A DNA stretch of 64,000 bases from Stygiobacter sp. (GTDB lineage: Bacteria > Pseudomonadota > Alphaproteobacteria > Rhodospirillales > Magnetospirillaceae). The translations under genes and the position numbers were made by a program. The stretch lies in contig VBWB01000016.1 of assembly GCA_006218045.1 (NCBI GenBank), positions 62,001 through 126,000 of the forward strand. The letters run 5' to 3'. Under the pieces are notes generated by a model. The model saw nothing but the letters and a program-made list of their open reading frames with translations, searched no databases and was not told where the DNA came from. Positions 31,174 to 52,409 of the stretch are shown piece after piece; position 1 is the stretch's first letter, and every line of letters starts with the position of its first letter.

Positions 31174-31710
31174 TCACAGCAGGCCGCCCGCTCCCAGAAT
31201 TCCGGCGACGGCGATCAGCCACAGGGGGTTAAGCCGGGTCAACAGCAGGATCACCGTGGCAACGGTGAAGGCAGCGACCTGAACGACGTTCAGTAAGGTC
31301 ATCTCGGCCAGGGCCCAGGCCGTCGCCGCCATCATGCCGATGGCCAGGGGTTGCACGGCGACGCGCACCCGTCGGCCCCATGGACCGTCCAGATGACGAC
31401 CACCGTAACGCAAGGTCAGGATGGTCAACAGGGCCGGCGGCACCACCAAGCCGATGGTGGCGGCCAAGGCCCCCGGGAAACCCGCCGCCCGCATGCCGAC
31501 CAAGGTGGCGAACAGGAAGTTGGGGCCTGGGGCGATCTGCGCCAGGGTAAAACTTTCCATGAACTCGGCGCGGCTGACCCAGCCATGGGTTTCCGAGACG
31601 AAGCGCATCATATCGGGGGACAGCGAAATCACCCCGCCGCCAATGGCCAGCAGCGACAGCATGGCGAAATGCAGCAGGATCTGAAGGGCGATACCGTACC
31701 CGGAGCTCAT
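31174..31710 (-). CDS. chrA: Chromate transporter (ChrA) subunit, C-terminal type half
   Basis: 178 aa with five or six membrane segments. The Chr-family motif is ESFTLAQIAPGPNFLFATLVG, after GGGVISLSPDMM. It is one of two short Chr proteins whose genes overlap by 4 nt (ATGA at 31707-31710); such pairs are thought to assemble into a heterodimer equivalent to long ChrA. The true substrate may be chromate or another oxyanion. Confidence 0.85.
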   Translation of the reverse strand: MSSGYGIALQILLHFAMLSLLAIGGGVISLSPDMMRFVSETHGWVSRAEFMESFTLAQIAPGPNFLFATLVGMRAAGFPGALAATIGLVVPPALLTILTLRYGGRHLDGPWGRRVRVAVQPLAIGMMAATAWALAEMTLLNVVQVAAFTVATVILLLTRLNPLWLIAVAGILGAGGLL

Positions 31711-32267
31711 GATTGCGTCGTCCGCGGATTGATCAACAAGGCAAGGCCCGCCAGCCCCAGCATGACCAAGGCCAAGGGCCAGTGCAGCAGGGCGATGCCG
31801 GCGAACATGGCGGCGGCGAGAACGGCATTGCGCCATGTGGGTTTCAGGCTTTTGGCCATGCGCAAGGCGGTGGCGGCGACCAAGGCGGCAGCGGCCACCG
31901 ACATGCCACGCAAGACGTCCTGGATGACCTGGGCATGGGCCAATTCCTGATAGGCGTAGCCCAGCGCCAGCACGAAGACGGCGGGCGGCACCACCATGCC
32001 GGACAAGGCGGCCACCGCCCCGCCCGACCCGGCCTTCCGATGGCCGACCAGGATGCTGATATTGCAGATGGTCGGCCCTGGCATCAATTGGGCATAGGCC
32101 AGAATCTCGAGAAATTCCTGCGGTGACAGCAATTTGCGCTTCTCCACCAGGATGCGGTGCGCCCAAGGCATCACGCCGCCGAAACCGATCAGCGCCATGC
32201 CGGAGAACAAGGTGAACAGCCGCCATTTCGACAAACTGCCGGAAATCGGGGGGGACACGGCAATCAT
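31707..32267 (-). CDS. chrA: Chromate transporter (ChrA) subunit, N-terminal type half
   Basis: 186 aa, hydrophobic. FSGMALIGFGGVMPWAHRIL and EILAYAQLMPGPTICNISIL (a PGP motif) identify the Chr family. ATG 32267 overlaps the stop of the upstream LysR-type gene by 4 nt, so the transporter pair is cotranscribed with that regulator. That arrangement hints that the regulator may also control this exporter. Confidence 0.85.
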   Translation of the reverse strand: MIAVSPPISGSLSKWRLFTLFSGMALIGFGGVMPWAHRILVEKRKLLSPQEFLEILAYAQLMPGPTICNISILVGHRKAGSGGAVAALSGMVVPPAVFVLALGYAYQELAHAQVIQDVLRGMSVAAAALVAATALRMAKSLKPTWRNAVLAAAMFAGIALLHWPLALVMLGLAGLALLINPRTTQS

Positions 32268-33535
32268 GCTTGCGGTTCCGTGGACTGAAGGGTGGTGGAA
32301 AAGTGGCGGATATTGTCCATGACCGCATGGGCGGCGGGCGACAGCAGGGCGCCGTCGCGCAAGGTCAAGCCGATATGGCGGACCGTGCGCCCCAGGATCA
32401 CCGGCAATTCCCGGATCAGCCCGGCGGCGATTTCCTGCTGCATCTGCCGTGGCGACATGGCGGTCAGTAAGTCGCTGCACGACAAAAGATGACGGATGAC
32501 GGCAAGGTCGCCGGTTTCCACCGACGCCACCGGCGGTTCCAGGCCCAATTCATGAAAGGAATCATCCACCAGCCGCCGCCCCGGGGCGTCGGGACGGGGC
32601 AGAATCCACATCTGATCCAGTACTTGGTCGAGCGCGATGACCTCGCGCCCGGCCAGGGGGTGTTCAGCGCGAGCCAGGATGCCGATGCGATCCTCGAACA
32701 AAGGTTCGGTGCGCAGGCCCAGAGCTTCCGACTGCGACCGCACCGCACCGAAGATCATGTCGATGTCGCCGGTGCGCAGGGCCGCCGCCAGGGTTTCGTA
32801 AGGCCCCTCCACCGTGCGGATGCGCAGACGGGGATGAGCGGCCAAGGTGGCGGCGATGGCGCTGGGAATCACATAAGTGCGCCCCAGGGGCAGCGCCCCC
32901 ATCACCACCGTGCCGAGCAAAGTGCCGGAAATGGCCGACATGTCCGATTCCAGATGGCGTAATTCGGCGAAGATGCGTTTGGCGGCGGTAATCAGCTTGT
33001 CGGTGGTATCGGTGGCCACCATGCCCTGCACCATGCGGTGAAACAACGGACGCCCCAGGCCGCTCTCGATGCGCGCCAGCGACATGCTGGCCCCCGCCTG
33101 CCCCAGGCCCAGGCGTCCGGCGGCGGTGGACAGGTGGCGGGTCTCGGCGATCTGCACCAGCAATTGCAGCTTGCGACCACCATAAAGCAGGTTGGTCAAC
33201 ACCGAGCGCTCGCTGCCGACACGGGTGCGAAACACGTCGTCGGCGGCCTGCTGGACCAGGGCATCCACCCGCTCGGCCCGACGCAGAACCGCCTGGCCGA
33301 AGGCGTTCAACATCATGCCGCGCGGCTTGCGCTCGAACAAAGGCAGGCCCAACCCCTTTTCCAGTTCCCGGACCGACCGCGTGATGGCCGAGGACGCCTT
33401 GAAGATGGCCTCCGAGGATTTGGTGATGCTGCCCTTTTCCGCCACCGACAGAAAGACCCGCAGATGCCCCAGGCAATGCTCCAACCCAACGGGAAGTGTG
33501 GCGATGGTTTCCATGGGACCGGCCTTCGCGGACAT
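32264..33535 (-). CDS. LysR-type regulator with two N-terminal helix-turn-helix domains
   Basis: 423 aa, about 120 longer than a normal LysR protein. Two successive LysR-like winged-helix units are visible: residues ~24-85 (HLRVFLSVAEKGSITKSSEA, LFERKPRGMML) and ~122-185 (LLVQIAETRHLSTAAGRLGL, PLFHRMVQGMVAT). A ligand-binding domain follows from ~205 (GTVVMGALPLGRTYVIPSAI). It is divergent from the dctP'-dctQM promoter. The 36-bp element at 33613 lies in the spacer and recurs at two other aromatic-pathway promoters, so this protein is the leading candidate to bind it. ATG 33535 is uncertain; ATG 33514 has a weak AAGG site. Confidence 0.85.
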   Translation of the reverse strand: MSAKAGPMETIATLPVGLEHCLGHLRVFLSVAEKGSITKSSEAIFKASSAITRSVRELEKGLGLPLFERKPRGMMLNAFGQAVLRRAERVDALVQQAADDVFRTRVGSERSVLTNLLYGGRKLQLLVQIAETRHLSTAAGRLGLGQAGASMSLARIESGLGRPLFHRMVQGMVATDTTDKLITAAKRIFAELRHLESDMSAISGTLLGTVVMGALPLGRTYVIPSAIAATLAAHPRLRIRTVEGPYETLAAALRTGDIDMIFGAVRSQSEALGLRTEPLFEDRIGILARAEHPLAGREVIALDQVLDQMWILPRPDAPGRRLVDDSFHELGLEPPVASVETGDLAVIRHLLSCSDLLTAMSPRQMQQEIAAGLIRELPVILGRTVRHIGLTLRDGALLSPAAHAVMDNIRHFSTTLQSTEPQA

Positions 33536-33612
33536 TTGTGGACGAGCATGCGGACAGCGTGATGCCGCCTTGGGCGAATGTAGTCCGCACGCCCTGGGAA
33601 TGAGAAGATGAT

Positions 33613-33677
33613 ATCACAAAATTAGAAAGCCAATTCACGAATGGGCAATGCCTCTTTGCCACGGCGGGCCGTATAGT
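33613..33677 (+). promoter_or_regulatory. Shared 36-bp activator element, copy 1, with -10 box (dctP'-dctQM promoter)
   Basis: Element 33613-33648: ATCACAAA, ATTAGAA, a 6-nt variable block, then TTCACGAATGGGCAA. The -10-like TATAGT is at 33672-33677, its first base 24 nt after the last base of the element. There is no good -35 box, which suits an activator-dependent promoter. GAA-N6-TTC in the centre is a dyad. The same element with the same 24-nt spacing recurs at 35915 and 42842. Confidence 0.75.
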
Positions 33678-33785
33678 GAGGGCAATCAAGAAAGACGGCG
33701 AGCCTGTGCCCATGCCTGGGAAATCCCACCAAACTGCGGATTTCGCCGTCAAAAAATAAAAAAGCCCAAGTGGAGGATAACCGAA

Positions 33786-33932
33786 ATGAAGAAGTTTCTG
33801 GGGGCGGCATTTGCCTTGGCCCTGGCCGGCACCGCCCCGGATGCGTGCGCAGACGATGCCGTTTTGAAAGCGCATCACTTTCCTGCCCCCCAATCGCCGC
33901 CTCCCTGGACGCTTCCCAGGGTACGGATCTGA
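33786..33932 (+). pseudogene. dctP: Truncated TRAP substrate-binding protein gene (dctP stub)
   Basis: 48 codons: signal peptide MKKFLGAAFALALAGTAPD, then DDAVLKAHHFPAPQSPP, which matches the mature start of the intact DctP at 42980 (DVTLKVHHFLGPQAPQ). The homology then stops and a TGA follows after unrelated residues. The stop lies beside three tandem GATCG pentamers (33931-33945), perhaps a deletion scar. Roughly 300 codons are missing. It occupies the normal dctP place before dctQ and dctM and keeps a promoter and ribosome site. Confidence 0.8.
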
Positions 33933-34016
33933 TCGGATCGGATCGGCCCGCCCGCTCCGCCTCATCCTGGACGCAACCGCCGCCATAACGCGGCGTCATC
34001 AAAATCGGAGGCTTCC

Positions 34017-34538
34017 ATGGCTGACGACATTTTCATGGACATCGAGCACCATTACGGGCCGATCGGACGGGTGCTGGACTGGTTGTCGCGCGCCTTCGCC
34101 GTCGGTGCCGGCTTAACCTTGACGGCCATGGCCGTGCTGTCGCTGGCCAGCGTGGCGGGACGTGCGGCGTTTTCCTTCCCCATCCTGGGGGATTACGAAC
34201 TGGTTCAGGTGATGTCCGCCGTGGCCGTCGTCATGTCCCTGCCGTTTTGCCAGATGGTGCGCGGGCACGTCATCGTCGATTTCTTCACCACCAGCTTTCC
34301 GCCCGTGATCAACCGCTTTCTCGATCTGCTGGCCAATCTGCTGTTGACGATCGGCGCCTTCACCTTCGCCTGGCGCATGGCCGTCGGTCTGCTGGAAATC
34401 AAGAAAACCGGCGACGCCTCCATGCTGCTGAACCTGCCCACCTGGTACGGCTACATCCCCATGGTCGCGTCCTTCTTCCTGCTGGGCTGCACCGCGCTTT
34501 ACGCCGCCTGGGAAGACTTCACGGGAGAACGCAAATGA
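34017..34538 (+). CDS. dctQ: TRAP transporter small permease (DctQ)
   Basis: 173 aa with four membrane segments. The motif DYELVQVMSAVAVVMSLPF and the following RGHVIVDFF are typical of DctQ subunits. Overlaps dctM by 4 nt. Lies 84 bp after the decayed dctP, so it must work with a binding protein encoded elsewhere, most likely the one at 42980. Confidence 0.9.
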   Translation: MADDIFMDIEHHYGPIGRVLDWLSRAFAVGAGLTLTAMAVLSLASVAGRAAFSFPILGDYELVQVMSAVAVVMSLPFCQMVRGHVIVDFFTTSFPPVINRFLDLLANLLLTIGAFTFAWRMAVGLLEIKKTGDASMLLNLPTWYGYIPMVASFFLLGCTALYAAWEDFTGERK

Positions 34539-35851
34539 CCGGTATCGGCTACGGCCTGACCATCGGCGGCTTGATGATCGGCCTGCTGGCGCTGCGCGTC
34601 CATATCGGCGGCGCCATGTTGATCGCCGGTTCCATCGGCTATTTCTGGGTCGCCGGCAGCGACCCGCTGCTGAATTACTTCAAGAACGCCGCCTATGCGC
34701 GGTATTCGGTCTATGACCTGTCGGTGGTGCCTTTGTTCCTGCTGATGGGGCAGTTCGCCACCCATGGCGGCCTGTCGCGCGCCCTGTTCCGGGCGGGCGC
34801 CACCATGATCGGACATTGGCGCGGCGGCATGGCCATGGCCGGCGTCACCGCCTGCGCCGGTTTTGGCGCCATCTGCGGCTCGTCGCTGGCCACCGCCGCC
34901 ACCATGGGCCAGGTCGCCCTGCCGGAACTGCGCCGCCACGATTATTCCCCCAGCCTGGCGGCGGCGGCGCTGGCGGCGGGCGGAACCCTGGGCATCCTGA
35001 TTCCCCCCTCGGTGCCGCTGGTCATCTATGCCATCCTGACCGAACAGAACATCGCCAAGCTGTTCATGGCCGCCTTCATTCCCGGCATCATCGCCGCCAT
35101 CGGCTATATGGTGGTGATCTCGCTGATCGCCCGCCTCGACCCCGCTGCCGCTCCGGCCAGTGAAAAGACCAGCTGGGGCCAGCGGCTTCAGGCCATCATC
35201 GACACTTGGCCGGTGATGCTGATTTTCCTGGTGGTGATCGGCGGCATCTACGGCGGCATCTTCACCCCCACCGAGGCGGCTTCGGTCGGTACCGTCGCCA
35301 CCGCCCTGGTGGCGTGGCGTTCCGGCGGCTTGAAAGGACGCGGTTTTCTGGAATGCGTCTATGGCGCCGCCAAGGCCACCGGCATGATCTTCCTGATCCT
35401 GTTGGGTGCCGACGTGCTGAACGTCTTCCTGGCCCTGACCCAAATGCCGACGGAACTGGCCAAATGGGTGATCGGCTTCGATCTGCCCCCCCTGGCCGTC
35501 CTGTTCGCCATCATCGCCATCTACCTGTTCCTGGGCTGCATCATGGACAGCCTGTCCATGCTGCTGCTGACCATCCCCATCTTCTTCCCGATCATCGTCG
35601 GTACCGATTTTTGGGGACTGGATCACGATTCCAAGGCCATCTGGTTCGGCATCGTCGCGCTGATGACCGTGGAAATCGGCCTCATCACGCCACCGGTGGG
35701 GATGAACGTCTACATCATCAGCAGCCTGACCAAGGATGTATCGATGAAGGACACCTTCCGCGCCATCGTTCCCTTCCTGGCGTCGGACCTGCTGCGCATC
35801 CTGTTGCTGGTGTTCTTCCCATCGGTCGCCCTGATCGCTCTGAAACTGTGA
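34535..35851 (+). CDS. dctM: TRAP transporter large permease (DctM)
   Basis: 438 aa, about twelve membrane segments. AGFGAICGSSLATAATMGQVALPE, whose core is SLATAATMG, together with GTLGILIPPSVPLVIYAILT and FTPTEAASVGTVATAL, is characteristic of DctM. Imports an organic anion, driven by a sodium or proton gradient and fed by a periplasmic DctP. The context suggests an aromatic acid such as gallate or protocatechuate. A strong terminator follows at 35871. Confidence 0.93.
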   Translation: MTGIGYGLTIGGLMIGLLALRVHIGGAMLIAGSIGYFWVAGSDPLLNYFKNAAYARYSVYDLSVVPLFLLMGQFATHGGLSRALFRAGATMIGHWRGGMAMAGVTACAGFGAICGSSLATAATMGQVALPELRRHDYSPSLAAAALAAGGTLGILIPPSVPLVIYAILTEQNIAKLFMAAFIPGIIAAIGYMVVISLIARLDPAAAPASEKTSWGQRLQAIIDTWPVMLIFLVVIGGIYGGIFTPTEAASVGTVATALVAWRSGGLKGRGFLECVYGAAKATGMIFLILLGADVLNVFLALTQMPTELAKWVIGFDLPPLAVLFAIIAIYLFLGCIMDSLSMLLLTIPIFFPIIVGTDFWGLDHDSKAIWFGIVALMTVEIGLITPPVGMNVYIISSLTKDVSMKDTFRAIVPFLASDLLRILLLVFFPSVALIALKL

Positions 35852-35870
35852 CGGTGGGGCAATCAGAACC

Positions 35871-35905
35871 GGGCCGGCCCGATCAAGGGCCGGCCCTTTC
35901 TTTTT
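35871..35905 (+). terminator. Intrinsic terminator after dctM
   Basis: GGGCCGGCCC (35871-35880), loop GATCAA, GGGCCGGCCC (35887-35896), then TTTCTTTTT. It separates dctQM from the gallate operon promoter that begins 10 bases later. Confidence 0.9.
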
Positions 35906-35914
35906 ACAGAACTC

Positions 35915-35979
35915 ATCACAAAATTAGAACGCTCTTTCACGAATGAGCAAAAGGCCGGGACCGGCAACGGGTGTACATT
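35915..35979 (+). promoter_or_regulatory. Shared 36-bp activator element, copy 2, with -10 box (gallate operon promoter)
   Basis: Element 35915-35950: ATCACAAA, ATTAGAA, CGCTCT, then TTCACGAATGAGCAA. The -10-like TACATT is at 35974-35979, again 24 nt after the element. It drives the run from the tautomerase gene to the chemoreceptor (36014-42818). Confidence 0.75.
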
Positions 35980-36013
35980 TTGATCCTGTCGATCACAGCT
36001 TTCCGAGGCCGCC

Positions 36014-37105
36014 ATGCCGCATTTTCCCGACCATCCCGATCTACAGCGCATCCCCTGCGTCTGGATGCGGGGCGGCACGTCCAAGGCGGCATTCTTTCAT
36101 GCGTCCGACCTGCCCGAGGACGGCACCGCCCGCGACCGGCTGATCCTGGCCGCCATGGGTTCGCCTGATCCACGCCAGATCGACGGCATCGGCGGGGGCA
36201 CGCCCCTGACCACCAAGGTCGCCATCATCTCGCGTTCGACCGATCCGGAGGCCGACCTGGACTATCTGTTCGCCCAGGTGGTGATCGGCGAGAACCGCAT
36301 CGATTACTCCCCCACCTGCGGCAACATCCTGGCCGGAGTGGCGCCCTTTGGTCTGGACCAGGGACTGACCCCCGCCCGCGCGGAGGTCACCACCGTGCGC
36401 ATCCGCATGGTCAACACCAATAGCCTGTGCGAAGCGGTGGTGCTTACTCCCGGCGGTCGCGTCGCCTATGCCGGCGACACCCGCATCAGCGGCGTCCCCA
36501 ATCCTTCGGCCCCCATCGAGCTCAGGTTCCGGAACATCGCCGGCTCCAGCTGCGGCATGCTTTACCCCACCGGCAACAAGACCGACACCGTCCGGGGCGT
36601 GGCGGTGTCGTGCCTCGACAACGGCATGCCGGTGGTGGTGATGCGGGCCGAGGATGTGGGCATCACCGGCTATGAATCGCCAGCCCAACTGGATGCCGAC
36701 ACCGAGCTCAAGGCCAAGGTGGAAGCCATCCGCCTGGAGGTGGGGCCGATGATGGGGTTGGCCGACGTCGCCGGCAAGGTCGTGCCCAAGATGACCCTGA
36801 TTTCCGCCCCCCGCGACGGCGGACACCTGAACACCCGCACCTTTATTCCCAAGAAGTGTCACGACGCCATCGGCGTCCTGGGCGCCGCGTCGGTGGCGAC
36901 CGCCTTCGCCGATGCCGGCACCGTGTGCGGCGCGCTGGGGGGCGGCCTGGCGGTCCCTGGCGATATCTCGGTCGAGCACCCCACCGGCGAATTCACCATC
37001 CGCCTGTTCAACGACCCCACCGAAGCCAGGGCGCCCGCGGTGGCCTTGCTGCGGACCGCGCGCCCCCTGTTCGAGGGAACCGTGCTGGTGCCGGCGGTCG
37101 GCTGA
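36014..37105 (+). CDS. 4-oxalomesaconate tautomerase (PrpF family, GalD/LigU type)
   Basis: 363 aa of the PrpF/diaminopimelate-epimerase-like fold. CVWMRGGTSKAAFFHASDLP at the start and DYSPTCGNILAGVAPF with GNKTDTV are the family signatures. In gallate and protocatechuate 4,5-cleavage this enzyme interconverts 4-oxalomesaconate isomers so that the hydratase can act. First gene after copy 2 of the shared element, 30 bp before gallate dioxygenase. GalD (tautomerase) and LigU (allylic isomerase) differ in their proposed chemistry and cannot be told apart here. Confidence 0.88.
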   Translation: MPHFPDHPDLQRIPCVWMRGGTSKAAFFHASDLPEDGTARDRLILAAMGSPDPRQIDGIGGGTPLTTKVAIISRSTDPEADLDYLFAQVVIGENRIDYSPTCGNILAGVAPFGLDQGLTPARAEVTTVRIRMVNTNSLCEAVVLTPGGRVAYAGDTRISGVPNPSAPIELRFRNIAGSSCGMLYPTGNKTDTVRGVAVSCLDNGMPVVVMRAEDVGITGYESPAQLDADTELKAKVEAIRLEVGPMMGLADVAGKVVPKMTLISAPRDGGHLNTRTFIPKKCHDAIGVLGAASVATAFADAGTVCGALGGGLAVPGDISVEHPTGEFTIRLFNDPTEARAPAVALLRTARPLFEGTVLVPAVG

Positions 37106-37135
37106 AGCCAGGAATTACGTCAAAAAGAGGAAGAC

Positions 37136-38419
37136 ATGGCTCGTATCATCGGCGGCATCGCCTGTTCGCATACCCCCACCATCGGCTTCGCCGTGGACCG
37201 CAACAAACAGGACGACCCGGTGTGGGCACCGGTCTTCCAGGGCTTTGAACCCGCGCGGCTTTGGCTGGAAGAGAAGAAGCCCGACGTCCTGTTCATGATC
37301 TTCAATGACCATGTGACCTCGTTCTTCTTTGACCACTATTCCGCCTTCACCTTGGGGATCGACAGCCAATACGCCATCGCCGACGAAGGCGGCGGCCAGC
37401 GCGACCTGCCCCCGGTCAAGGCCCATGCCGCCCTGGCCCAGCATATCGGCGCGTCACTGATGGCCGACGAATTCGACATGTCCTATTTCCAGGACAAGAA
37501 GCTGGATCACGGCTGCCTGTCGCCCCTGTCCATCCTGTGCCCGCGCGATGGCGACTGGGCCATGCCCATCGTGCCCCTGGCCGTGGGCGTGCTGCAGCTT
37601 CCCATCCCCTCGGCGGCACGCTGCTACAAGCTGGGGCGGGCGTTGCGTCGGGCCATCGAAAGCTTCCCCGAGGACATAAAGGTCGCCATCGTCGCCACCG
37701 GCGGCCTGTCGCACCAGGTGCACGGGGCGCGGGCCGGCTTCACCAACACCGAATGGGACATGCAGTTCCTCGAACTGTTCGAGAAGGATCCCGAGGCCCT
37801 GACCCGCCTGACCATCGCCGATTATGCCGAACTGGGCGGAGTCGAGGGGGCCGAGGTGATCATGTGGCTGATCATGCGCGGCGCGCTGTCGGCCAACGTC
37901 AAGAAGATCCACCAATCCTACTACCTGCCGTCCATGACCGGCATCGCCACCGCGGTGTACGAGAACCAGGACATCCCCCTGCCCAAGGACAAGGAAGCGG
38001 AAGCCCGCGCCCATATCGGCCACCAGTTGGCGGGGGCCGAGACCCTGGCGGGCATCCATCCCTTCACCCTTGCGGTCAGCGTCAAGGCTTATCGTCTGAA
38101 CAAATACCTGCATGCCATGATCGACCCCGAACACCGCCGCCGTTTCCAGGATGACCCGGAAGCATCCTTCGCCGCCGCCGGCCTGACCGAACCGGAAAAG
38201 CGCATGGTCCGCGACCGCGACTGGGACGCCATGATCCGTTACGGCGTCATCTTCTTCATGCTGGAAAAATTGGGGGCGGTGGTCGGCACCTCCAACCTGC
38301 ACATCTACGCCGCCATGCGCGGTGAAACCCTGGAGCAGTTCCAGGCCACCCGCAACGCACCGAACGTCCTTTATTCCGTCACCGGCAAGGATGGCGGCAA
38401 GGAAAGCTGGGAGAAGTGA
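37136..38419 (+). CDS. Gallate dioxygenase (GalA/DesB type)
   Basis: 427 aa, one chain that combines a LigB-like catalytic domain (residues 1-285) with a C-terminal LigA-like domain (GLTEPEKRMVRDRDWDAMIR). The iron ligands are in place: His12 in GIACSHTPTIG, His in FMIFNDHVTSFF, Glu in GAEVIMWLIMRGAL; the catalytic His is in TGGLSHQVHGARAG. The length and fusion match GalA/DesB and not two-subunit LigAB. It cleaves gallate between C4 and C5 to 4-oxalomesaconate, bypassing the LigC and LigI steps. Confidence 0.88.
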   Translation: MARIIGGIACSHTPTIGFAVDRNKQDDPVWAPVFQGFEPARLWLEEKKPDVLFMIFNDHVTSFFFDHYSAFTLGIDSQYAIADEGGGQRDLPPVKAHAALAQHIGASLMADEFDMSYFQDKKLDHGCLSPLSILCPRDGDWAMPIVPLAVGVLQLPIPSAARCYKLGRALRRAIESFPEDIKVAIVATGGLSHQVHGARAGFTNTEWDMQFLELFEKDPEALTRLTIADYAELGGVEGAEVIMWLIMRGALSANVKKIHQSYYLPSMTGIATAVYENQDIPLPKDKEAEARAHIGHQLAGAETLAGIHPFTLAVSVKAYRLNKYLHAMIDPEHRRRFQDDPEASFAAAGLTEPEKRMVRDRDWDAMIRYGVIFFMLEKLGAVVGTSNLHIYAAMRGETLEQFQATRNAPNVLYSVTGKDGGKESWEK

Positions 38420-38421
38420 AC

Positions 38422-39477
38422 ATGAACACCCCCGCCGGCCGCCGGCCCCTGATCATCGACATTCACGGCCATTACACCACCGCCCCCAAGGCGCTGGAGG
38501 AGTGGCGCAACCGCCAGGTCGCCGCCATCAACGACCCCAAGCAGATGCCCAAGCTGTCCGAATTGAAGATCAGCGACGACGAACTGCGTGAAACCATCGA
38601 GAGCAACCAGTTGAAGAAGATGCGGGAACGGGGCTCCGACCTGACCATCTTCTCACCCAGGGCCAGCTTCATGGCTCACCACATCGGCGACTTCACCATC
38701 AGCAGCACCTGGGCGGCCATCTGCAACGAGCTGTGTTATCGGGTGTCGCAATTGTTCCCCGACACTTTCGCCGGCGCCGCCATGCTGCCGCAAAGCCCCG
38801 GAATCGACCCGGCCACCTGCGTCGCCGAGATGGAGAAATGCGTCCGCGACTATGATTTCGTCGGCATCAACCTGAACCCCGATCCATCGGGGGGGCACTG
38901 GACCTCGCCGCCGCTCACCGACCGCCACTGGTACCCCCTCTACGAGAAGATGGTGGAGTTGGACATCCCCGCCATGATCCATGTCTCGACCTCGTGCAAC
39001 GCCTGTTTCCACACCACCGGGGCGCATTACATCAACGCCGACACCACGGCGGTCATGCAGTTGATCCAGGGCGATCTGTTCAAGGATTTCCCCAGCCTCA
39101 AGTTCGTCATCCCCCATGGCGGCGGCGCCGCCCCCTATCATTGGGGCCGTTATCGCGGCCTAGCGCAGGAGATGAAGAAGCCGCTGTTGTCCGAGCACCT
39201 GCTGAAGAACATCTTCTTCGACACCTGCGTCTACCACCAGCCGGGCATCGACCTGCTGACCCAAGTCATCCCGGTGGACAACATCCTGTTCGCGTCCGAG
39301 ATGATCGGCGCCGTGCGCGGCATCGACCCCGAGACCGGGCATTACTACGACGACACCAAGCGTTACATCGAGGCCACCTTGAACCTGTCGGCGGCAGACC
39401 GCTTCAAGGTCTACGAAGGCAACGCCCGGCGGGTCTATCCGCGCCTGGACGCCAAACTGAAGAAGAAAGGGCTGTAA
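38422..39477 (+). CDS. ligJ: 4-oxalomesaconate hydratase (LigJ type amidohydrolase fold)
   Basis: 351 aa. [20 protein letters not shown] near the N-terminus (HxH metal motif), [18 protein letters not shown] and [16 protein letters not shown] match LigJ-type hydratases. Adds water to 4-oxalomesaconate to give 4-carboxy-4-hydroxy-2-oxoadipate. ATG 38422 is preferred; GTG 38416 would leave too little room for the GGGAGA site. Follows gallate dioxygenase by 2 nt and is followed by the aldolase 2 nt later. Confidence 0.9.
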
Positions 39478-39479
39478 TC

Positions 39480-40169
39480 ATGGCCATCAACGATCTGGGT
39501 ATCGTCAAGCGCAACATCACCCGCGCCAGCGCCGCCGAGGTGGAGGCGCTGTCCAAGTTCGGCGTCGCCACCATCCACGAGGCCATGGGCCGCGTCGGCC
39601 TGATGCAGCCCCATATGCGTCCCATCTATCCGGGCGCCCGGGTGTGCGGCACGGCGGTGACCGTGCTGCTGCATCCCGGCGACAACTGGATGATGCACGT
39701 GGTGGCCGAACAGGTGCAACCGGGTGACGTGGTGGTCGCCGCCATCACCGCGCCTTGCACCGACGGCTATTTCGGCGACCTGTTGGCCACCTCGTTCCGC
39801 GCCCGCGGCGCCAGGGCGCTGATCATCGACGCCGGAGTGCGCGACGTCAAAACCCTGACCGAAATGGGCTTCCCGGTGTGGAGCAAGGCGATCAGCGCCA
39901 AGGGGACCATCAAGGCCACCTTGGGCTCGGTCAATATTCCGGTGGTGTGCGCCGGTGCCGTGGTCAATCCCGGCGACGTACTGGTCGCCGACGACGACGG
40001 CGTCGTCGTCGTGCCATCGGCGGTGGCGGCACAAGCCGCCGAGGCGGCGGCCAAGCGCGAGAGCAACGAGGAAGCCAAGCGGGCCAAGCTGGCCGCCGGA
40101 ACCTTGGGCCTGGACATGTACGACATGCGCGGGCCGCTGGAAAAGGCCGGCCTGAAATACATCGACTGA
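39480..40169 (+). CDS. ligK: 4-carboxy-4-hydroxy-2-oxoadipate aldolase (LigK type)
   Basis: 229 aa, RraA/HMG-aldolase fold. [20 protein letters not shown], then [20 protein letters not shown] and [20 protein letters not shown] hold the divalent-metal and substrate residues. Splits the hydrated product into pyruvate and oxaloacetate, the last step shared by the gallate and protocatechuate branches. Confidence 0.92.
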
Positions 40170-40180
40170 CGAGGTTGGGC

Positions 40181-41104
40181 ATGAGTGCGGATGCGATTGG
40201 TAGCATAGCCCTGGTCGGCTATGGCGAAGTGGGGACCATCCTGGCCGAGGATCTGGTCAAGCAGGGACTGACGGTGTCGGCCTGGGACCTGAAGCTGCGC
40301 ACCCACCCCGGGGACGAAGCGGCGGTGCGCATGCACCGACACGCCGAGGCCAACGGCGTGCGGCTGTGCGATGGTCCGGCCCGGGCCTTGGCCGGGGCGC
40401 ACCTGGTCATCAGCGTCGTCACCGCCAGCCAAACCCTGTCGGCGGCCAGCGAATGCGCCCCGTTGCTGGAGCCGGGTGCCCTGTTCCTGGATTGCAACTC
40501 GGCCTCGCCGGGGGCCAAGCAATCCTGCGCCCGCACGGTCGAGGATAGCGGTGGGCGCTATGTCGAGGCGGCGGTGATGACCTCGGTGCCGCCGTTCCGC
40601 ATCCAGGTTCCCATGCTGCTGGGCGGCGCCTGGGCCGACCACGCCCTGCCCGCCCTGACCGCGCTCGGCTTCAAGGCGGACGTCGCCTCGGACAAGGTGG
40701 GGGTGGCCTCCGCCACCAAGATGTGCCGATCCATCATGATCAAGGGTCTGGAGGCCATGGTCATCGAAAGCTTTACCACCGCGCGGGCCTACGGCGTCGA
40801 GGATGCGGTGATCCAGTCGCTGGTCCGCACCTTCCCCGGCCTGGATTGGGAAAAGGAGGGCAGCTACTTCTTCCACCGCGTGCTGCTGCACGGTCGCCGC
40901 CGGGCCGAGGAAATGCGCGAGGTGGTCGCCACCGTGCGCGAGGCCGGGCTCGACGGCTGGATCGCGGGCGCCGCCGCCGACCGCGACGATTGGATGGCCG
41001 ATCTCGCCGATGCCCATGATCTGCGCCAAACCCATCCGGGCATCGAGGATTGGCGCGGCCTCTCCGACCATTTGCTGGCCCTGCTCAAGGCCAAGGAGAA
41101 CTGA
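40181..41104 (+). CDS. NAD(P)-binding dehydrogenase with C-terminal DUF1932
   Basis: 307 aa. N-terminal Rossmann motif [18 protein letters not shown] of the 6-phosphogluconate/hydroxyisobutyrate dehydrogenase superfamily; the C-terminal part ([19 protein letters not shown]) is DUF1932. It lies 11 nt after the aldolase and 1 nt before a chemoreceptor, so it belongs to the gallate operon. It is not needed for the known pathway and is unrelated to the LigC dehydrogenase at 50178. It may process a modified aromatic or a side product; substrate unknown. Confidence 0.8.
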
Positions 41105-41105
41105 C

Positions 41106-42818
41106 ATGCCGGCGGCTTGGTTCGATGATCGTCCGGTGCTGTTCAAGGTCGCCGCCGCTCCCGTCATCGGCCTGCTGTGCCTTGTTGCGGTGGGCATCGG
41201 CATGTATTTCACCATCGACCGCCTGAACCATCTGCGCCAGGACATCCGCGACGGCGCCTTCACCCCCTACCAGCAGGCGGCGCAGGTGCAAAATGCCGCG
41301 CTGGATCTCTATGCCCAGATGTTCCGCGTCGCCACCCTTGCCGCCTCGGGCAATGGCGGATTGGGCAGCGAGGCCGATTTGCTCAACGTCCAGGCCGACC
41401 GTCTGGCGGCACTGCGCGACCTCGCCCCGGTCAACGTGCGCAGCGACCTTGATTCCTATATTTCCGCTGCCCGCGACGTCATCAAGGCACTGCGCAGCGA
41501 CCCGTCGCTGGCGCTCATCCTGATGAGTTCGGCGGAATTCGCCTATACCGGCCTTGCCTCGGGCCTGGGCGATGCCACCGCCAGGGCCGAACGCCAGGGC
41601 CAGCACCTGTACGATCAGGCGGCGCGTGAAAGCCGCTTGGCCGTTCAAGTCTTCGCCCTGGGCATCGGTGCATTCGTCGTCGGCGGCATGGTGGTCACCA
41701 TCATCCTGAGCCGCGCCATCAGCCGCCCGATCCTCGCCATGACCCGTGCCATGGGCGAATTGGCCTCGGGCAATCTGCGCATCAATCTGGACGCCCATCG
41801 CCGCCGCGACGAAATCGGTGCCATGGCCCAAGCCATGGTGGTGTTCCGCGACGCGTTGGCTACGGCCGAGGACATGCGCCGCGACCAGGACCACCAGACC
41901 CAACGGCGCGAACAGCGCAGCCGCGACCTCGACAAGGCCATGGACGAATTCCAGACCCGGATCGGCGGAATCGTCGCCAGCGTCACCCGTGCCGCCGAGA
42001 CGTTGCAGACCGATTCCAGCGTGATGCTGGAAGAGTCCGAACGCACCCGCGCCCACACCCTGGCGGGTGGCGAGGAAGCCCGGCGCACCGCCGGCAACGT
42101 CGACACCGTCGCCGCCGCCACCGCCGAATTGTCGGCCTCCATCGACGAAATCGACCGCCGCATGCGGGAAACCGCCCTGGTGTCCGAGGACGCCGCCCAC
42201 GCCGCCGGCGAAGCCGGCACCGCCATGCGCAAGGTGGTCGAAACCTCACGCGACATCGAAGCGGTGCTGCGCATGATCTCGATGATCGCCGGCCAGACCA
42301 ACCTGTTGGCCTTGAACGCCACCATCGAGGCGGCCCGCGCCGGTGAGGCCGGCAAGGGCTTCGCCGTGGTCGCCGACGAGGTCAAGCACCTGGCCAACCG
42401 CACCGCCACCGCCACCCAGGAAATCGCCACGCAAATGTCCACCCTGCGCGAGGTCACCGACGGCGCTTCGCTGGCGGTGGACGGCATCGTCCAGGTGGTG
42501 GGGCGCATCGGCGCCATGGCTCGGGACATGACCCACGCCGTCGAGCAGCAAGGCGCCGCCACCCGCGAGATCGCCCAAGGCGCCGAAGCCGCCGCCCAGG
42601 GCACCCGGGGCGTGGATGCCGCCATGGATTCGGTGGCCGGCGCCACCCAGGCCAACCGCGACACCGCCCGGTCGGTGCTGGCCTCGGCCCGCCTGCTCAA
42701 CGACCAGGCCGAGCAATTGCGTGACGAGATCGAATCCTTCCTGGCCCAGGTGGCCGACACCGGCCTGCGTTCCGCCGACCAACCCTTCATCGACCGCGCC
42801 ACCGCCGGCCTGGGTTAG
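41106..42818 (+). CDS. Methyl-accepting chemotaxis protein
   Basis: 570 aa. Membrane segment at residues ~12-35, a helical periplasmic sensor region (~40-185), second membrane segment ([20 protein letters not shown]), HAMP ([18 protein letters not shown]) and a signalling domain with the hairpin tip [22 protein letters not shown] 41106 is one base after the preceding gene's stop. Last gene of the gallate operon, so it probably mediates taxis toward the substrate or a related aromatic acid. No CheW-pentapeptide tail is visible. Confidence 0.9.
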
Positions 42819-42841
42819 CGTATCGCCGAACAACAAGAGCC

Positions 42842-42906
42842 ATCACAGGATTAGAACGATACTTCACGAATGGGCAACGCGGTTTTTCCCAGCCCGGGAC
42901 TATACT
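42842..42906 (+). promoter_or_regulatory. Shared 36-bp activator element, copy 3, with -10 box (dctP promoter)
   Basis: Element 42842-42877: ATCACAGG, ATTAGAA, CGATAC, then TTCACGAATGGGCAA. The -10-like TATACT is at 42901-42906, again 24 nt downstream. It drives the intact dctP at 42980. No terminator is visible between the chemoreceptor stop and this promoter, so read-through is also possible. Confidence 0.75.
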
Positions 42907-42979
42907 TCGATCACAAAATAGAAACGCCCGGGGACACTGTCCCAAGAGGCGGCGGACAACAAACCAAGGAGGAGATTTC

Positions 42980-44011
42980 ATGTACAGGAGAATGCTGGGA
43001 ATCGCCGTGGCGGCGACCCTGTTCGGTGGGGTTTCCACCGTCAACGCGCAGGACGTCACCTTGAAGGTCCACCACTTCCTGGGACCACAGGCGCCCCAGC
43101 ACGCCAAGGTGCTGGTGCCTTGGTGTGACAGGCTGGACAAGGAATCCGGCGGCAAGCTGAAGTGCCAAATCTATCCGGCCATGCAATTGGGCGGCACACC
43201 ACCGCAGCTTTACGACCAAGCCAAGGATGGCGTCGCCGACATCATCTTCACGCTGGCCGGCTATGCCGCCAACCGCTTCCCCCGCATGGAAGTGTTCGAG
43301 TTGCCCTTCATGATGACCAATGCCGAGGCCACCAGCCGCGCCGTCTGGGATTATTATGAAGCCAACGCCAAGGATGAGTTGAAGGAAACCCACCTGCTGG
43401 CGGCCTTCGTCCATGGTCCGGGCAATATTTACACCGCCAAGAAGAAGATCGAGAGCCTGGCCGATTTCCGTGGCCTGAAGCTGCGTGCGCCCACCCGCCA
43501 GACCAACAAGATGTTGGCCATGATGGGCGCTACCCCGGTGGGCATGCCGGTGCCGGCAGTGCCCGAGGCGCTGTCCAAGGGCGTCATCGATGGCGCCGTC
43601 ATTCCCCACGAAGTGGCGCCGTCCATCAAGATGGACGAACTGGCCAAGTTCGCCGCCGAGACCGACCGCAGCTTCAACGCCCTTTACACCGCCGTCTTCC
43701 TGGTAAGCATGAACCAGGCCAAATACGATTCCCTGCCCGCCGACCTGAAGAAGGTGTTGGACGCCAATTCCGGCGGCGAGGTCTCGGGTCTGTTCGGTCG
43801 CACCATGTCGGAAGCCGACGCGGCGGGCCGTGAAAAGCTGGTGGCCGGCGGCGTCGCCATCAACACCATCCCGGTGGCCGAATTGCAGAAGTGGCAGACC
43901 GCCTCCGCCGAACTGGACAACCAGTGGGCCAAGGACATGGACGGCAAGGGCGCCGACGGCAAGGCCCTGGTCAAGGCCGCCCAGGACCTGATCAGGAAGT
44001 ACACCAAGTAA
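42980..44011 (+). CDS. dctP: TRAP transporter substrate-binding protein (DctP)
   Basis: 343 aa with signal peptide (RRMLGIAVAATLFGGVSTVNA) and the DctP body: GQTN-type carboxylate-binding region LKLRAPTRQTNKMLAMMG with its conserved Arg, then GMPVPAVPEALSKGVIDGAV. No permease genes adjoin it. The matching dctQM lie at 34017-35851 behind a dctP stub, and both loci carry the same promoter element, so this protein very likely serves that permease. Confidence 0.92.
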   Translation: MYRRMLGIAVAATLFGGVSTVNAQDVTLKVHHFLGPQAPQHAKVLVPWCDRLDKESGGKLKCQIYPAMQLGGTPPQLYDQAKDGVADIIFTLAGYAANRFPRMEVFELPFMMTNAEATSRAVWDYYEANAKDELKETHLLAAFVHGPGNIYTAKKKIESLADFRGLKLRAPTRQTNKMLAMMGATPVGMPVPAVPEALSKGVIDGAVIPHEVAPSIKMDELAKFAAETDRSFNALYTAVFLVSMNQAKYDSLPADLKKVLDANSGGEVSGLFGRTMSEADAAGREKLVAGGVAINTIPVAELQKWQTASAELDNQWAKDMDGKGADGKALVKAAQDLIRKYTK

Positions 44012-44034
44012 CAGTGCCCCCCACATACGACAAA

Positions 44035-44066
44035 GGCCCGGAACCCCAAGGTTCCGGGCCTTTTTT
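44035..44066. terminator. Intrinsic terminator between dctP and the reductase gene
   Basis: GGCCCGGAACC (44035-44045), loop CCAA, GGTTCCGGGCC (44050-44060), then TTTTTT. It serves dctP on the + strand and may also help stop the convergent P450-system transcript. Confidence 0.93.
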
Positions 44067-44071
44067 GTGCT

Positions 44072-45292
44072 TCAGCCCAACAGCGAATTCAGCTTGAAGC
44101 CTTCGTCCGCCGCCTGTTCCGGGCTGGGCGAAATCCCCGCCGCCAGCAGCTTGCGACCGACGATATGGTCGGCGGCCTTGTTGACCGAATCCACCGCCCG
44201 CAAGCAGCCGCCCCGGTAATGGAACAGCGAGAACTTGTCGACCGCCATGTCGCCGCGCCGGACCACACTGTCGCACCCCATGGTCAGGCCGACCATCTGT
44301 AGCTTCAATTCGTACTGATCCGACCAGAACCACGGTACCGTGCCATAGGGCTTGTCGTGGCCCAGGATGGTGGCGGCGACGCACCGTCCCTGGTCGGCGG
44401 CGTTCTGCACCGATTCCAGACGCACCCGGCTGGCGGCGAAGGGATGGTCGAAGACGGCGCAATCGCCGGCGGCGAAGATATCGGGATCGTTGGTGCGGCA
44501 ATATTGGTCGACGACGATGCCGTTGTCGCAGACGATGCCGCAATCCTCGGCCAGTTCCACATTGGGGAGCACGCCGATACCGACCACCACCAGATCGGCG
44601 GCGTGAACGGCGCCGTCGGCGCAGACCACCCGCTGGACCCGGCCCTCGCCTTCCACGGCGGCGACCACCGCCCCACACTGGATGACGACACCCCGTCCCC
44701 GATGGAAGGCCGTGAAATAATCGGACAGCACCGGATGGACGACGCGGCCCATGATGCGAGGCGCGGCTTCCAGCACCGTCACCGCCTTACCCAGCTTGCG
44801 GGCGACAGCGGCGAATTCCAGCCCGATGAAGCCGGCACCGATCACCACCACTTGCGCGGCCCGCCCCAGGGCTTCGCCGATGCGGTCGACGTCGTCCAGG
44901 GTCTTCAGGGTGAACACCCCGGCCAAATCGGCGCCGGGCACCGTCAGGTTGCGCACCCGGCTGCCGGTGGCAAGGACCAGCTTGTCATAAGCCAGCGATC
45001 CGCCATCGTCCAGACGCACGCGCTTGCCGGAACGATCGATGGCTTGGACGGATCGACCTCGCCGCAGGTCGATGCCATGCTGGGCATAATAATCGGCGGT
45101 GCGGAACAGGATGCGCATGCCGTCGGTCTCACCCAGCAGATAGGCCTTGGACAAGGGCGGGCGCTGATAGGGCGGATGGGGCTCGGCGCCGACCAGGGTG
45201 ATGGGACCGTCATGGCCCTCTTGGCGCAGGGATTCGACGGTCTGATAGCCCGCCTGACCGGCACCGACGACGACGATCGCCGGCGCCGTCAA
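44072..45292 (-). CDS. FAD-dependent ferredoxin reductase (P450 electron transfer)
   Basis: 406 aa, putidaredoxin-reductase type: FAD motif VVVGAGQAGYQTVESLRQ, NAD motif VVVIGAGFIGLEFAAVAR, and FAAGDCAVFDHPF near the FAD flavin end. TTG 45292 overlaps the ferredoxin stop. With the ferredoxin and P450 genes it forms a complete class I P450 electron chain from NAD(P)H. Confidence 0.9.
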   Translation of the reverse strand: MTAPAIVVVGAGQAGYQTVESLRQEGHDGPITLVGAEPHPPYQRPPLSKAYLLGETDGMRILFRTADYYAQHGIDLRRGRSVQAIDRSGKRVRLDDGGSLAYDKLVLATGSRVRNLTVPGADLAGVFTLKTLDDVDRIGEALGRAAQVVVIGAGFIGLEFAAVARKLGKAVTVLEAAPRIMGRVVHPVLSDYFTAFHRGRGVVIQCGAVVAAVEGEGRVQRVVCADGAVHAADLVVVGIGVLPNVELAEDCGIVCDNGIVVDQYCRTNDPDIFAAGDCAVFDHPFAASRVRLESVQNAADQGRCVAATILGHDKPYGTVPWFWSDQYELKLQMVGLTMGCDSVVRRGDMAVDKFSLFHYRGGCLRAVDSVNKAADHIVGRKLLAAGISPSPEQAADEGFKLNSLLG

Positions 45293-47977: not shown

Positions 47978-48817
47978 TCACTCGCACGCCATGGCCAGCA
48001 GGCCGGCGGCGGTGTTGGAAATGGGGATGTGGTAGTTGCAATGGACTTGGCGCACCGTGGCCCCCAGGGCGCCGCGGCAGGTCAGCCAGTTCAGCAATTC
48101 GATGCCCTGGGTGCCGGTCTTTTCCACCAATTCGTCGTTATTGAACCGGGTCACCCAATCGGGATCGCTGACCAGTTTTTCCAGAAATTCCAGATCGAAG
48201 GCCTTGTTGATGAAACCGGCGCGGGTGCCCTCCAACTGGTGCGACAGACCGCCGGTGCCGAGGACGACGACGCGGGCGTCGGAGTCCCAGTTTTCGATGG
48301 CGCGGCCGATGGCGCGGCCGAAAGCCAGGCAGCGCTTGGCGCTGGGCAGAGGGAACTGCACGGTGTTCTGGCAGATGGGCACGGTACGGATGGGCTTTTC
48401 CAGCCGGTCGGGGAACATCAGTTCCAGCGGCAGGGTGAAAGCGTGGTCCACCAGCATTTCCTGGCAGGTGGTCAGATCGAATTCCGCCTCGATCAGGCTG
48501 TCGATCAGGTGCCATGATAAATCGAGGTCGCCGCCGAACGGTTGAACGGTGGGGATGCCCCAGCCTTCATCGGCGTTGACGTATTCAGGCGCCGCCCCAA
48601 CGGCGAAGGTGGGCATCTTGTCGAGAAAGAAGTTGAGGCCGTGGTCATTGTAGACCACCACCGCCACGTCGGGCTTCACCTCCGCCAGCCAGTCATGAAC
48701 CGGCGGGAAACCGTCGAAAAAGGGCTTCCAATAGGCATCCTGTTGCAGGTTGTTGGCCAGCGCCCGACCGATATAGGGCACATGGGTGACGTTGATGCCG
48801 CCGACGATATGGGCCAT
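47978..48817 (-). CDS. Second LigB-type extradiol dioxygenase beta subunit
   Basis: 279 aa. All catalytic positions are kept: His12 in GGINVTHVPYIG, His in VVVYNDHGLNFF, His in TGGLSHQLEGTRAG, Glu in GIELLNWLTCRGAL. ATG 48817 has GGGAGG before it and starts 1 nt after the stop of its LigA-like partner. It is distinct from the LigB at 51137 and from the gallate enzyme, so the organism has three LigB-family enzymes in 15 kb. Substrate unknown; another protocatechuate-like catechol such as 3-O-methylgallate is possible. Confidence 0.87.
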   Translation of the reverse strand: MAHIVGGINVTHVPYIGRALANNLQQDAYWKPFFDGFPPVHDWLAEVKPDVAVVVYNDHGLNFFLDKMPTFAVGAAPEYVNADEGWGIPTVQPFGGDLDLSWHLIDSLIEAEFDLTTCQEMLVDHAFTLPLELMFPDRLEKPIRTVPICQNTVQFPLPSAKRCLAFGRAIGRAIENWDSDARVVVLGTGGLSHQLEGTRAGFINKAFDLEFLEKLVSDPDWVTRFNNDELVEKTGTQGIELLNWLTCRGALGATVRQVHCNYHIPISNTAAGLLAMACE

Positions 48818-48818
48818 G

Positions 48819-49172
48819 TCAGTTCCTCCCCGCTTCAACCAGTTTGGCCATGAAGGCTTCCTTGCTCATGCCGGTCTGCTGAGCGCCGACATCCTGCATA
48901 TCCAGCTTGTAGATACCGCCCAGCTTGGCGATGTAATAGGCGTTGCCGCCGGCAGCCAGCATGGCCAGTACGTTCAGGTCCAACACCGCCTGCTTCTGTT
49001 CTTCATTCAGACCGAACTTGGCGCAATAGCCCTCGCGGTCGGCCAGGAATGCCTGGCGATTTTCCTCGGAATTGAATGAGAAGCACATTTTGTTGAGGGC
49101 ATATCCCTTGCGGGCCATATCGCCATCGAACAATGTTGTGCCCGGAATATTCAGCTTTGGTCTGGTTGACAT
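48819..49172 (-). CDS. Second LigA-type dioxygenase alpha subunit
   Basis: 117 aa, a LigA-like helical subunit: NIPGTTLFDGDMARKGYALN at the start, FSFNSEENRQAFLADREGYC, then LAAGGNAYYIAKLGGIY. Shorter than the LigA at 51984 (141 aa). ATG 49172 lies inside the end of the aldo-keto reductase gene (22-nt overlap). It forms the alpha2beta2-type dioxygenase with the LigB-like protein after it. Confidence 0.87.
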   Translation of the reverse strand: MSTRPKLNIPGTTLFDGDMARKGYALNKMCFSFNSEENRQAFLADREGYCAKFGLNEEQKQAVLDLNVLAMLAAGGNAYYIAKLGGIYKLDMQDVGAQQTGMSKEAFMAKLVEAGRN

Positions 49173-50173
49173 GATTTTCCTCTCTGAAAGTCTTCCGTAT
49201 CGATTTCGCTCTGATTGGCGGGGCTGTAGCGGTCCCCCGACACGGTGTCGTGGTTGATCAGTTGGTCCAGCCGGAACAGAACCTCCGGCGACAGGGAAAC
49301 GGTGTCCGTTGCCAGATCGTCCGCCAGATGGACGGGGCATCGGGTGCCGAACAGGGCGACCACGTGGTCGCCACGCGACAGCACCCAAGCCAGGGCAAGT
49401 TGGGCCGATGTATGGCCGGTTTCGGCGGCGATGGCGCGCAAGCCCGGCAAAAGCGCCAAGTTGCGCTGGTAATGCGGGGCCTGGAAGCGCGGCATCTGCC
49501 GACGGATGTCCTTGTCGGCCAAGTGCGCCGGATCGGGCGGCGCCGTGGTCAGGAACCCCCGGGCCAACGGACTGAAGGCGACGAAGGCGGCGCCGATGTC
49601 CCGGCAGGTCTCCAGCACCGCGATTTCCGGATTGCGGGTCCACAACGAATATTCGCTTTGCACCGCCGCGATGGGATGCACCGCATGGGCGCGGCGGAGG
49701 GTGTCGGCGGAAACCTCGGACAAGCCGATGGCCCTGATCTTGCCCGCCGCCACCAGATCGGCCAGGGCGCCGACGCTGTCCTCGACCGGCACCGCCTTGT
49801 CCCAACGGTGCAGGTAATAAAGATCGATCACCTCGGTCCCCAGACGCGCCAAGGCTTCGTCGCAGGTGCGCCTGATGGTCTGGGGGCGGCCATCGATCAC
49901 CCGTACCCCGTTCACCCCGGTCATGCCGCATTTGCTGGCCAGGGTGAAGCGGCGACGGTGCGGCCCCAGGATCTCGCCCACCAGGGACTCGTTGGCGCCG
50001 AAGCCATACAGGGCGGCGGTGTCGAAGAAATCGACACCGGCCTCCAGCGCCCCCAGCAACACCCGCCCGGCGGTGGCCCGATCGGGTGGCGCGCCATAGG
50101 CGTGGCTCAGATTCATGCATCCCAGGGCCAGGGCCGAGACGTCGAAGGGGCCGAGGCGGCGGCGGGTCCGCAT
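49151..50173 (-). CDS. Aldo/keto reductase
   Basis: 340 aa. The catalytic tetrad is visible: Asp and Tyr in FFDTAALYGFGANE, Lys in TLASKCG, His in DLYYLHRWD. NADPH-dependent reduction of a carbonyl is expected. It sits between ligC and the second ligAB pair in one operon, so its substrate is probably an aromatic aldehyde or a ring-cleavage semialdehyde. Its closest relatives include general stress AKRs, so the specific role is open. Confidence 0.87.
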   Translation of the reverse strand: MRTRRRLGPFDVSALALGCMNLSHAYGAPPDRATAGRVLLGALEAGVDFFDTAALYGFGANESLVGEILGPHRRRFTLASKCGMTGVNGVRVIDGRPQTIRRTCDEALARLGTEVIDLYYLHRWDKAVPVEDSVGALADLVAAGKIRAIGLSEVSADTLRRAHAVHPIAAVQSEYSLWTRNPEIAVLETCRDIGAAFVAFSPLARGFLTTAPPDPAHLADKDIRRQMPRFQAPHYQRNLALLPGLRAIAAETGHTSAQLALAWVLSRGDHVVALFGTRCPVHLADDLATDTVSLSPEVLFRLDQLINHDTVSGDRYSPANQSEIDTEDFQRGKSCQPDQS

Positions 50174-50177
50174 GGCC

Positions 50178-52409
<2,232 letters not shown>

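Follow-up and report, generated by a model that had tools for sequence, protein, structure and literature searches.

A gallate gene cluster with three copies of a 36-bp element

The window analysed here, a 64,000-nt stretch of Stygiobacter sp. DNA (all coordinates are window positions), carries a cluster of genes for gallate uptake, sensing and degradation. A 36-bp DNA element stands before three predicted transcription units of this cluster, and one of its copies separates the cluster from the divergent gene of a LysR-type regulator with two helix-turn-helix (HTH) domains. The element, its promoters and this regulator are our subject:

33613..33648, plus strand: element 1, which separates the divergent regulator from dctP'-dctQM and has two T-N11-A boxes (33613-33627; 33634-33648)
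35915..35950, plus strand: element 2, upstream of the gallate operon
42842..42877, plus strand: element 3, upstream of the detached dctP
33672..33677, plus strand: -10-like hexamer TATAGT of promoter 1, 24 nt past the end of element 1, with transcription predicted to start near 33684
35974..35979, plus strand: -10-like hexamer TACATT of promoter 2, 24 nt past the end of element 2, with transcription predicted to start near 35986
42901..42906, plus strand: -10-like hexamer TATACT of promoter 3, 24 nt past the end of element 3, with transcription predicted to start near 42913
32264..33535, minus strand: LysR-type regulator (423 residues; two HTH_1 domains, one LysR_substrate domain) that is predicted to bind the element
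33577..33582, minus strand: -10-like hexamer TACATT of the regulator promoter, 31 nt from element 1
33604..33606, minus strand: TTC, kept in 4/4 genomes, either where a weak -35 of the regulator promoter begins or at the margin of a third box

An initial annotation of this DNA had reported the three elements, and they are confirmed: 28 of 36 columns are identical in all three copies, and pairwise identity is 83-86% over the 36 bp but drops to 22-32% over the preceding 100 nt and to 21-31% over the 75 nt that follow. The annotation had also proposed a scan of the whole genome. In the 4.33-Mb genome of this organism, the full pattern has three exact matches (reversed control, 0), all of them before genes of the gallate cluster, so that the exact element is confined to the three cluster promoters. 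A core allowed up to 3 mismatches occurs three times in the window, against 0.08 expected by chance; a slightly shorter core has 3 exact matches in the genome, followed by 5 with 3 mismatches, a level that the reversed control reaches twice. Across a class-wide sample, the long pattern with up to 3 mismatches is present in 1 of 385 genomes, the organism's own.

The genes of the cluster, with one further signal, are:

33786..33932, plus strand: dctP remnant of 48 codons, the first ~39 like the start of dctP, then a stop
34017..34538, plus strand: dctQ, small membrane subunit of a tripartite ATP-independent periplasmic (TRAP) transporter (PF04290, 66.6 bits, cut-off 28.3)
34535..35851, plus strand: dctM, TRAP large membrane subunit
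35871..35896, plus strand: terminator-like hairpin with a T tail, between dctM and element 2
36014..37105, plus strand: galD, 4-oxalomesaconate tautomerase (NF033377, 488.2 bits, cut-off 440)
37136..38419, plus strand: galA, gallate dioxygenase (NF009904, 758.3 bits, cut-off 412)
38416..39477, plus strand: galB/ligJ-like amidohydrolase, probable oxalomesaconate hydratase (PF04909; function inferred from context)
39480..40169, plus strand: galC, 4-carboxy-4-hydroxy-2-oxoadipate aldolase (TIGR02798, 413.6 bits, cut-off 304.5)
40181..41104, plus strand: NAD-binding/DUF1932 dehydrogenase-like gene (start codon presumed)
41106..42818, plus strand: methyl-accepting chemotaxis protein (MCP) with HAMP and MCPsignal domains (start codon presumed)
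42980..44011, plus strand: dctP, TRAP solute-binding protein

That the cluster covers uptake, sensing and degradation, as had been claimed, is borne out by the gallate dioxygenase, the oxalomesaconate tautomerase, the aldolase, the TRAP transporter and the MCP; the three enzymes all score above their NCBIfam cut-offs, as expected of a gallate regulon, and the galB/ligJ-like protein has no NCBIfam match. The genes from galD to the MCP overlap or lie at most 30 nt apart, taking the presumed starts. Dividing the cluster into dctQM, a gallate operon and a detached dctP holds for the units themselves, with one correction: the first begins with the truncated dctP ahead of dctQM.

Two further features lie on the minus strand. 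Directly behind the regulator, at 31174-32328, is a gene of the chromate-transporter family (above the Pfam and below the NCBIfam cut-off); chromate-transporter matches adjoin the regulator in the three relatives described below as well, the one in G022 being partial. Two more LigB/LigA-type dioxygenase gene pairs, below the gallate dioxygenase cut-off, occupy 47999-52385, and the window thus holds more than one extradiol ring-cleavage system.

Promoter geometry and the two boxes of the element

According to the initial annotation, each -10-like hexamer starts exactly 24 nt after the element; counted from the element's last base, this is true of all three promoters, and each time the hexamer is the only TAnnnT in the following 60 nt. 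The lack of a good -35 is equally clear: at a spacing of 15-19 nt, the best matches are 3, 2 and 1 of 6 at promoters 1, 2 and 3, and a sigma-70 consensus scan of 33500-44150 returned none at the three promoters and 2 sites elsewhere, against 2.0 expected by chance. Could the fixed phase be an accident? A common offset with equally TATAAT-like hexamers appeared in 0 of 20,000 random triples and 0 of 20,000 shuffles, and the 23-nt spacers are as unrelated as had been stated (pairwise identity 26, 48 and 30%). Because identity is low both in the spacers and upstream, the constant phase is not merely that of a recently copied block.

Copying nevertheless deserves a closer look, since the three sites might belong to a recently copied promoter block or a mobile repeat, their constant distance reflecting copying and no regulation at all. 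Segments have indeed been shuffled here: dctP has moved and left a remnant. The full-length gene now follows the MCP and has an element to itself, and the truncated one stays before dctQM. In ungapped comparison, the remnant agrees at 22 of 39 residues with the syntenic dctP of Magnetospirillum sp. 64-120 (G023), at 19 with that of M. moscoviense BB-1 (G022) and at 16 with the window's own dctP. In G023, dctP holds the first place, and none was found after the MCP, where the window has element 3 and dctP. The detached dctP is 79% identical in DNA to the G023 gene and about 77% to that of G022 (taken from 16 bases before its start codon); it is therefore not a fresh copy of either. The truncated dctP under promoter 1 shows that a rearrangement took place. 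However, the spacers and flanks are unrelated (22-48% identity), the element and its distance are kept in other species ahead of different downstream genes, and the genome has just three copies. Copying without regulation is already largely excluded by these observations, and we give it almost no credence.

As a sequence, the single 36-bp element of the initial annotation stands; its structure can be refined to ATCACAAAATTAGAA-N6-TTCACGAATGGGCAA, that is, two 15-bp boxes, each of the form T-N11-A, placed 21 bp apart. With the -10 hexamer set at -12 and the starts inferred accordingly, the box centres are predicted at -64 and -43. Two T-N11-A boxes mark a LysR-type operator, one near -65 and the other between -45 and -35, and both are found here at the predicted positions. 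A half-degenerate site in G023 retains WTCAC and GCAA of the second box at the 21-bp phase, which supports the two-box reading. A near copy of box 1, ATCACAAAATAGAA, shorter by one base, lies at 42910-42923, directly 3' of the -10 of promoter 3; it spans about -3 to +11 and by eye has no counterpart at promoters 1 and 2.

The best explanation of this arrangement, to which we assign a probability of about 0.87 from sequence comparison, is that the divergent LysR-type regulator has its operator in the 36-bp element, which would comprise a recognition binding site (RBS) and an activation binding site (ABS), and that from there it would activate dctQM, galDABC-dehydrogenase-MCP and dctP. The proposal of an activator-type promoter set with a local regulator thereby gains support from the uniqueness of the element in the genome and, as described next, from its co-occurrence with the regulator in 4 of 55 genomes and the geometry kept in relatives.

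The regulator and the element in related genomes

The regulator is of the LysR type by its domains (HTH_1, 101.2 bits, cut-off 26.6; LysR_substrate, 109 bits, cut-off 28). LysR-type regulators usually have one N-terminal HTH. Here HTH_1 matches two stretches of the protein, and so do all 10 homologues scanned, each with one effector domain; the second HTH lowers the protein's status as a standard LysR-type regulator, not as a LysR-type regulator. The best NCBIfam match, PcaQ (TIGR02424), covers residues 121-413, i.e., the second HTH and the effector domain; identity with PcaQ was rejected (188.8 bits against a cut-off of 303.8), and the regulator differs from it by the additional N-terminal HTH and by the other pathway genes alongside. 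Six sequences of solved structures match at E <=1e-15, OxyR-type proteins best; the matches begin at residue 122 or 123 and so exclude the first HTH. An AlphaFold2 model from a 4-row alignment reached a mean predicted local distance difference test score of 46, too poor for fold searches; poor as the model is overall, its secondary structure repeats the winged-HTH pattern, and in the second occurrence the block means are mostly 74-80.

The initial annotation had further proposed a scan of relatives, and its outcome favours the local regulator. In 55 genomes of the family (own included), a 22-base core with up to 2 mismatches occurs in 16; of these, 12 contribute 13 matches with 2 mismatches, and at that level the reversed control likewise yields 8. 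At 0-1 mismatch, the core is present in four: the own genome, G022, G023 and Paramagnetospirillum caucaseum SO-1 (G033). A close regulator (the query itself or 62-69% identity) is encoded in exactly the same four; with the own genome set aside, three such genomes among 54 would coincide by chance with a probability of 1 in 24,804, kinship ignored. In two others, G009 and G032, a regulator at 32-35% identity was found with no core match, nor did a matrix scan of the fetched loci find an element. The regulator recurs at E <=1e-60 in 6 of 297 genomes of the order, the same four plus two at 34-35% identity; the class and order searches scored the best 4 or 6 candidates per genome, and members could be missed. 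Gallate dioxygenase exceeds its cut-off in five family genomes, four of which are the element genomes. The fifth, G019 (L068, 88% complete), has neither a core match nor the regulator.

Each of the three relatives has the element immediately upstream of the divergent regulator, in the gap between this gene and dctP or galA. In G023 it precedes dctP-dctQ-dctM, and the half-degenerate element precedes galD-galB-galC-dehydrogenase-MCP; in G022 it precedes dctP-dctQ-dctM-galA-galB-galC; in G033 it precedes galA, near the contig end. A matrix gives its six source sites 58.6-64.4, the half-degenerate G023 site before galD 35.4, and the best other site 6.9 (16 sequences: the window and 15 loci, three of them repeating others). 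Could another activator, encoded elsewhere, bind the element, the neighbouring regulator being linked by position alone? The co-occurrence rests on four related genomes, and a linked block can travel without the regulator binding anything in it. Against this stand the other 51 family genomes, which lack both the core at 0-1 mismatch and a close regulator. The boxes, moreover, have the T-N11-A form and are placed as in LysR-type operators, and only where the element adjoins the regulator does a regulator-side -10 stand at a fixed distance from it (see below); a foreign activator is decidedly unlikely.

Across these genomes the 24-nt spacing to the -10 holds for 5 of 7 promoters (three in the window, two in G023) and becomes 25 in G022 and G033. 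The -10 is the only TAnnnT within 60 nt at all seven, and no shuffle in 100,000 placed all seven in one 2-nt slot. The same promoters bear on the idea that the regulator represses, with the element excluding polymerase or looping between its three copies. Three copies within 9.3 kb would suit looping, and the promoter-proximal box abuts the -35 region; but all seven promoters lack a good -35 (best match 1-3 of 6), as suits dependence on an activator, and the predicted edge at -36 agrees with LysR-type activation sites. Repression is thus very improbable, and activation remains our reading.

On its other side, element 1 faces the predicted promoter of the regulator itself. A TAnnnT (TACATT, TACATT, TAAGAT, TACACT) starts 31 nt from the element in 4/4 genomes, with TTC at 7-9 nt; the three elements that do not adjoin the regulator have neither (0/3), one having a TAnnnT at 20. 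A common regulator-side offset arose in 0 of 100,000 shuffles. A GAA lies 21 bp upstream of the box-1 GAA in 4/4 regulator-adjacent copies and 0/3 others; it may mark a third box, or equally well the -35 of the regulator promoter. Numbered from the regulator promoter, the element would span -43 to -78, upstream of that promoter's -35 region and off its -10. Since the back-to-back arrangement is fixed, autoregulation is likely: element 1 very probably also sets the regulator's own level, with a sign that could go either way.

The tandem-HTH architecture is shared by homologues in other alphaproteobacteria. Of 7 loci that encode distant regulators, with 31-35% identity to that of the window, 6 have galD-like and dehydrogenase-like genes next to the regulator, the exception (L043) having an amidohydrolase (galB) and a weak galC match instead. 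At 6 of the 7, a homologue of the DUF1932/NAD-binding dehydrogenase is no more than 4 kb from the regulator, which suggests that this gene of the gallate operon serves a further step or a side reaction of the pathway. The matrix scan did not find the element at any of the seven (L042, L043, L088-L092; best score 3.3), so the architecture is wider than this operator. In 6 of 10 genomes of G394's genus, the gap that separates the regulator from the gene divergent to it has a conserved block with the word CACGAATG; this was dropped as a shared recognition word, for none of the other distant loci inspected has an exact copy and the overlap could be chance. Among the matches listed from the open PMC literature, none concerns LysR-type proteins with two or tandem HTH domains: two passages of PMC6018408 deal with MarR and AraC proteins, and passage searches found neither motif nor HTH terms in PMC12710314 (LigR) and no passage on gallate regulators in PMC6449761. 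Among the matches listed for Magnetospirillum with gallate, dioxygenase and TRAP, none mentions Magnetospirillum.

The predicted operator at work

How would the regulator act? We infer binding, activation, start sites and co-transcription along the following lines. The box centred at -64 would serve as the recognition box (RBS) and that at -43 as the activation box (ABS); the effector-bound regulator would fill both, two helical turns apart, and would hold or recruit RNA polymerase at a promoter that has a -10 but no -35. Three units would then rise together: TRAP uptake (dctQM, dctP), gallate degradation (galDABC and the dehydrogenase) and the chemoreceptor. At element 1, one operator would serve two back-to-back promoters. 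By analogy, the effector may be a gallate-pathway metabolite such as 4-oxalomesaconate, which is the inducer of GalR in Pseudomonas putida KT2440 (PMC9942251).

This GalR system and OxyR-type operators are among the nearest known counterparts. As far as the passages of that paper go, GalR is likewise a LysR-type activator divergent from a gene of the gallate operon; it serves more than one responsive promoter, two in that case, and has a conserved region of nearly 40 nt in which both an RBS and an ABS are predicted near the -35 (PMC9942251). The GalR box differs in sequence from the window's boxes, its T-N11-A core resembling CTATA-N9-TATAG, and gallate transport in P. putida relies on a major facilitator superfamily (MFS) transporter and porin, whereas the window cluster uses TRAP (PMC9942251). 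The element also resembles the operators of OxyR and other gammaproteobacterial LysR-type regulators, with 15-bp motifs, divergent genes and centres near -66 and -44; OxyR is reported to have motifs centred at -66, -44 and -35 relative to the target start, the third being unlike the two-box window element (PMC5002191).

Several observations weigh against the operator reading. Within the element, the two boxes agree at just 8 of 15 positions (6 of 15 in element 3), and an offset of 8 aligns them nearly as well (8/16), so the direct repeat alone is not significant; the dyads are weak, with 3 of 7 complementary pairs in box 1 and 4 of 7 in box 2. TACATT of promoter 2 agrees with TATAAT at 4 of 6 positions. 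On the regulator side, two of the four flanks contain a further TAnnnT (at 36 in G022, at 5 in G033), and the flanks are 33-55% identical, so inheritance contributes to the conserved 31-nt distance; moreover, the LysR systems described in PMC5002191 have a first motif that either overlaps the regulator's -10 or follows it downstream, and here the element is 31 nt away. When the core is loosened by two more free positions, with as many as 2 mismatches allowed, matches are scattered over all four element genomes: 24 in total (reversed control, 3), of which 5 are exact, 2 have 1 mismatch (the G022 site and one elsewhere in G033) and 17 have 2. The galA of G023 sits on another contig without the element, and not every galA is marked, even with the regulator present. 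Finally, a clear element-regulator pair is found in just four genomes, a shallow and partly inherited footprint.

The operator set is nonetheless real and functional-looking, ordinary in kind and well preserved; its sequence is new as far as searched, and the regulator architecture is uncommon. This architecture allows a variant of the mechanism, rather unlikely in our estimate, in which a tandem-HTH dimer with four DNA-binding heads would read both boxes alone, each chain placing one HTH per box, 21 bp apart. In that case the boxes would not be two dimer sites filled cooperatively; together they would make one rigid composite site of 36 bp, and contact of a single protein particle with two back-to-back promoters would account for the fixed distances to either side. 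A dimer spanning both boxes would be an exception to the usual picture of how LysR-type regulators fill RBS and ABS, and an easily testable one; the double-headed LysR-type regulators beside oxalomesaconate-pathway genes in other alphaproteobacteria would form a distinct mechanistic class.

With the operator assignment itself, a regulator with two LysR-type HTH domains per chain would be tied to a defined DNA site, and the gallate regulon of the Magnetospirillum group would have a clean, testable operator, through which uptake, ring cleavage and the chemoreceptor seem to be switched together.

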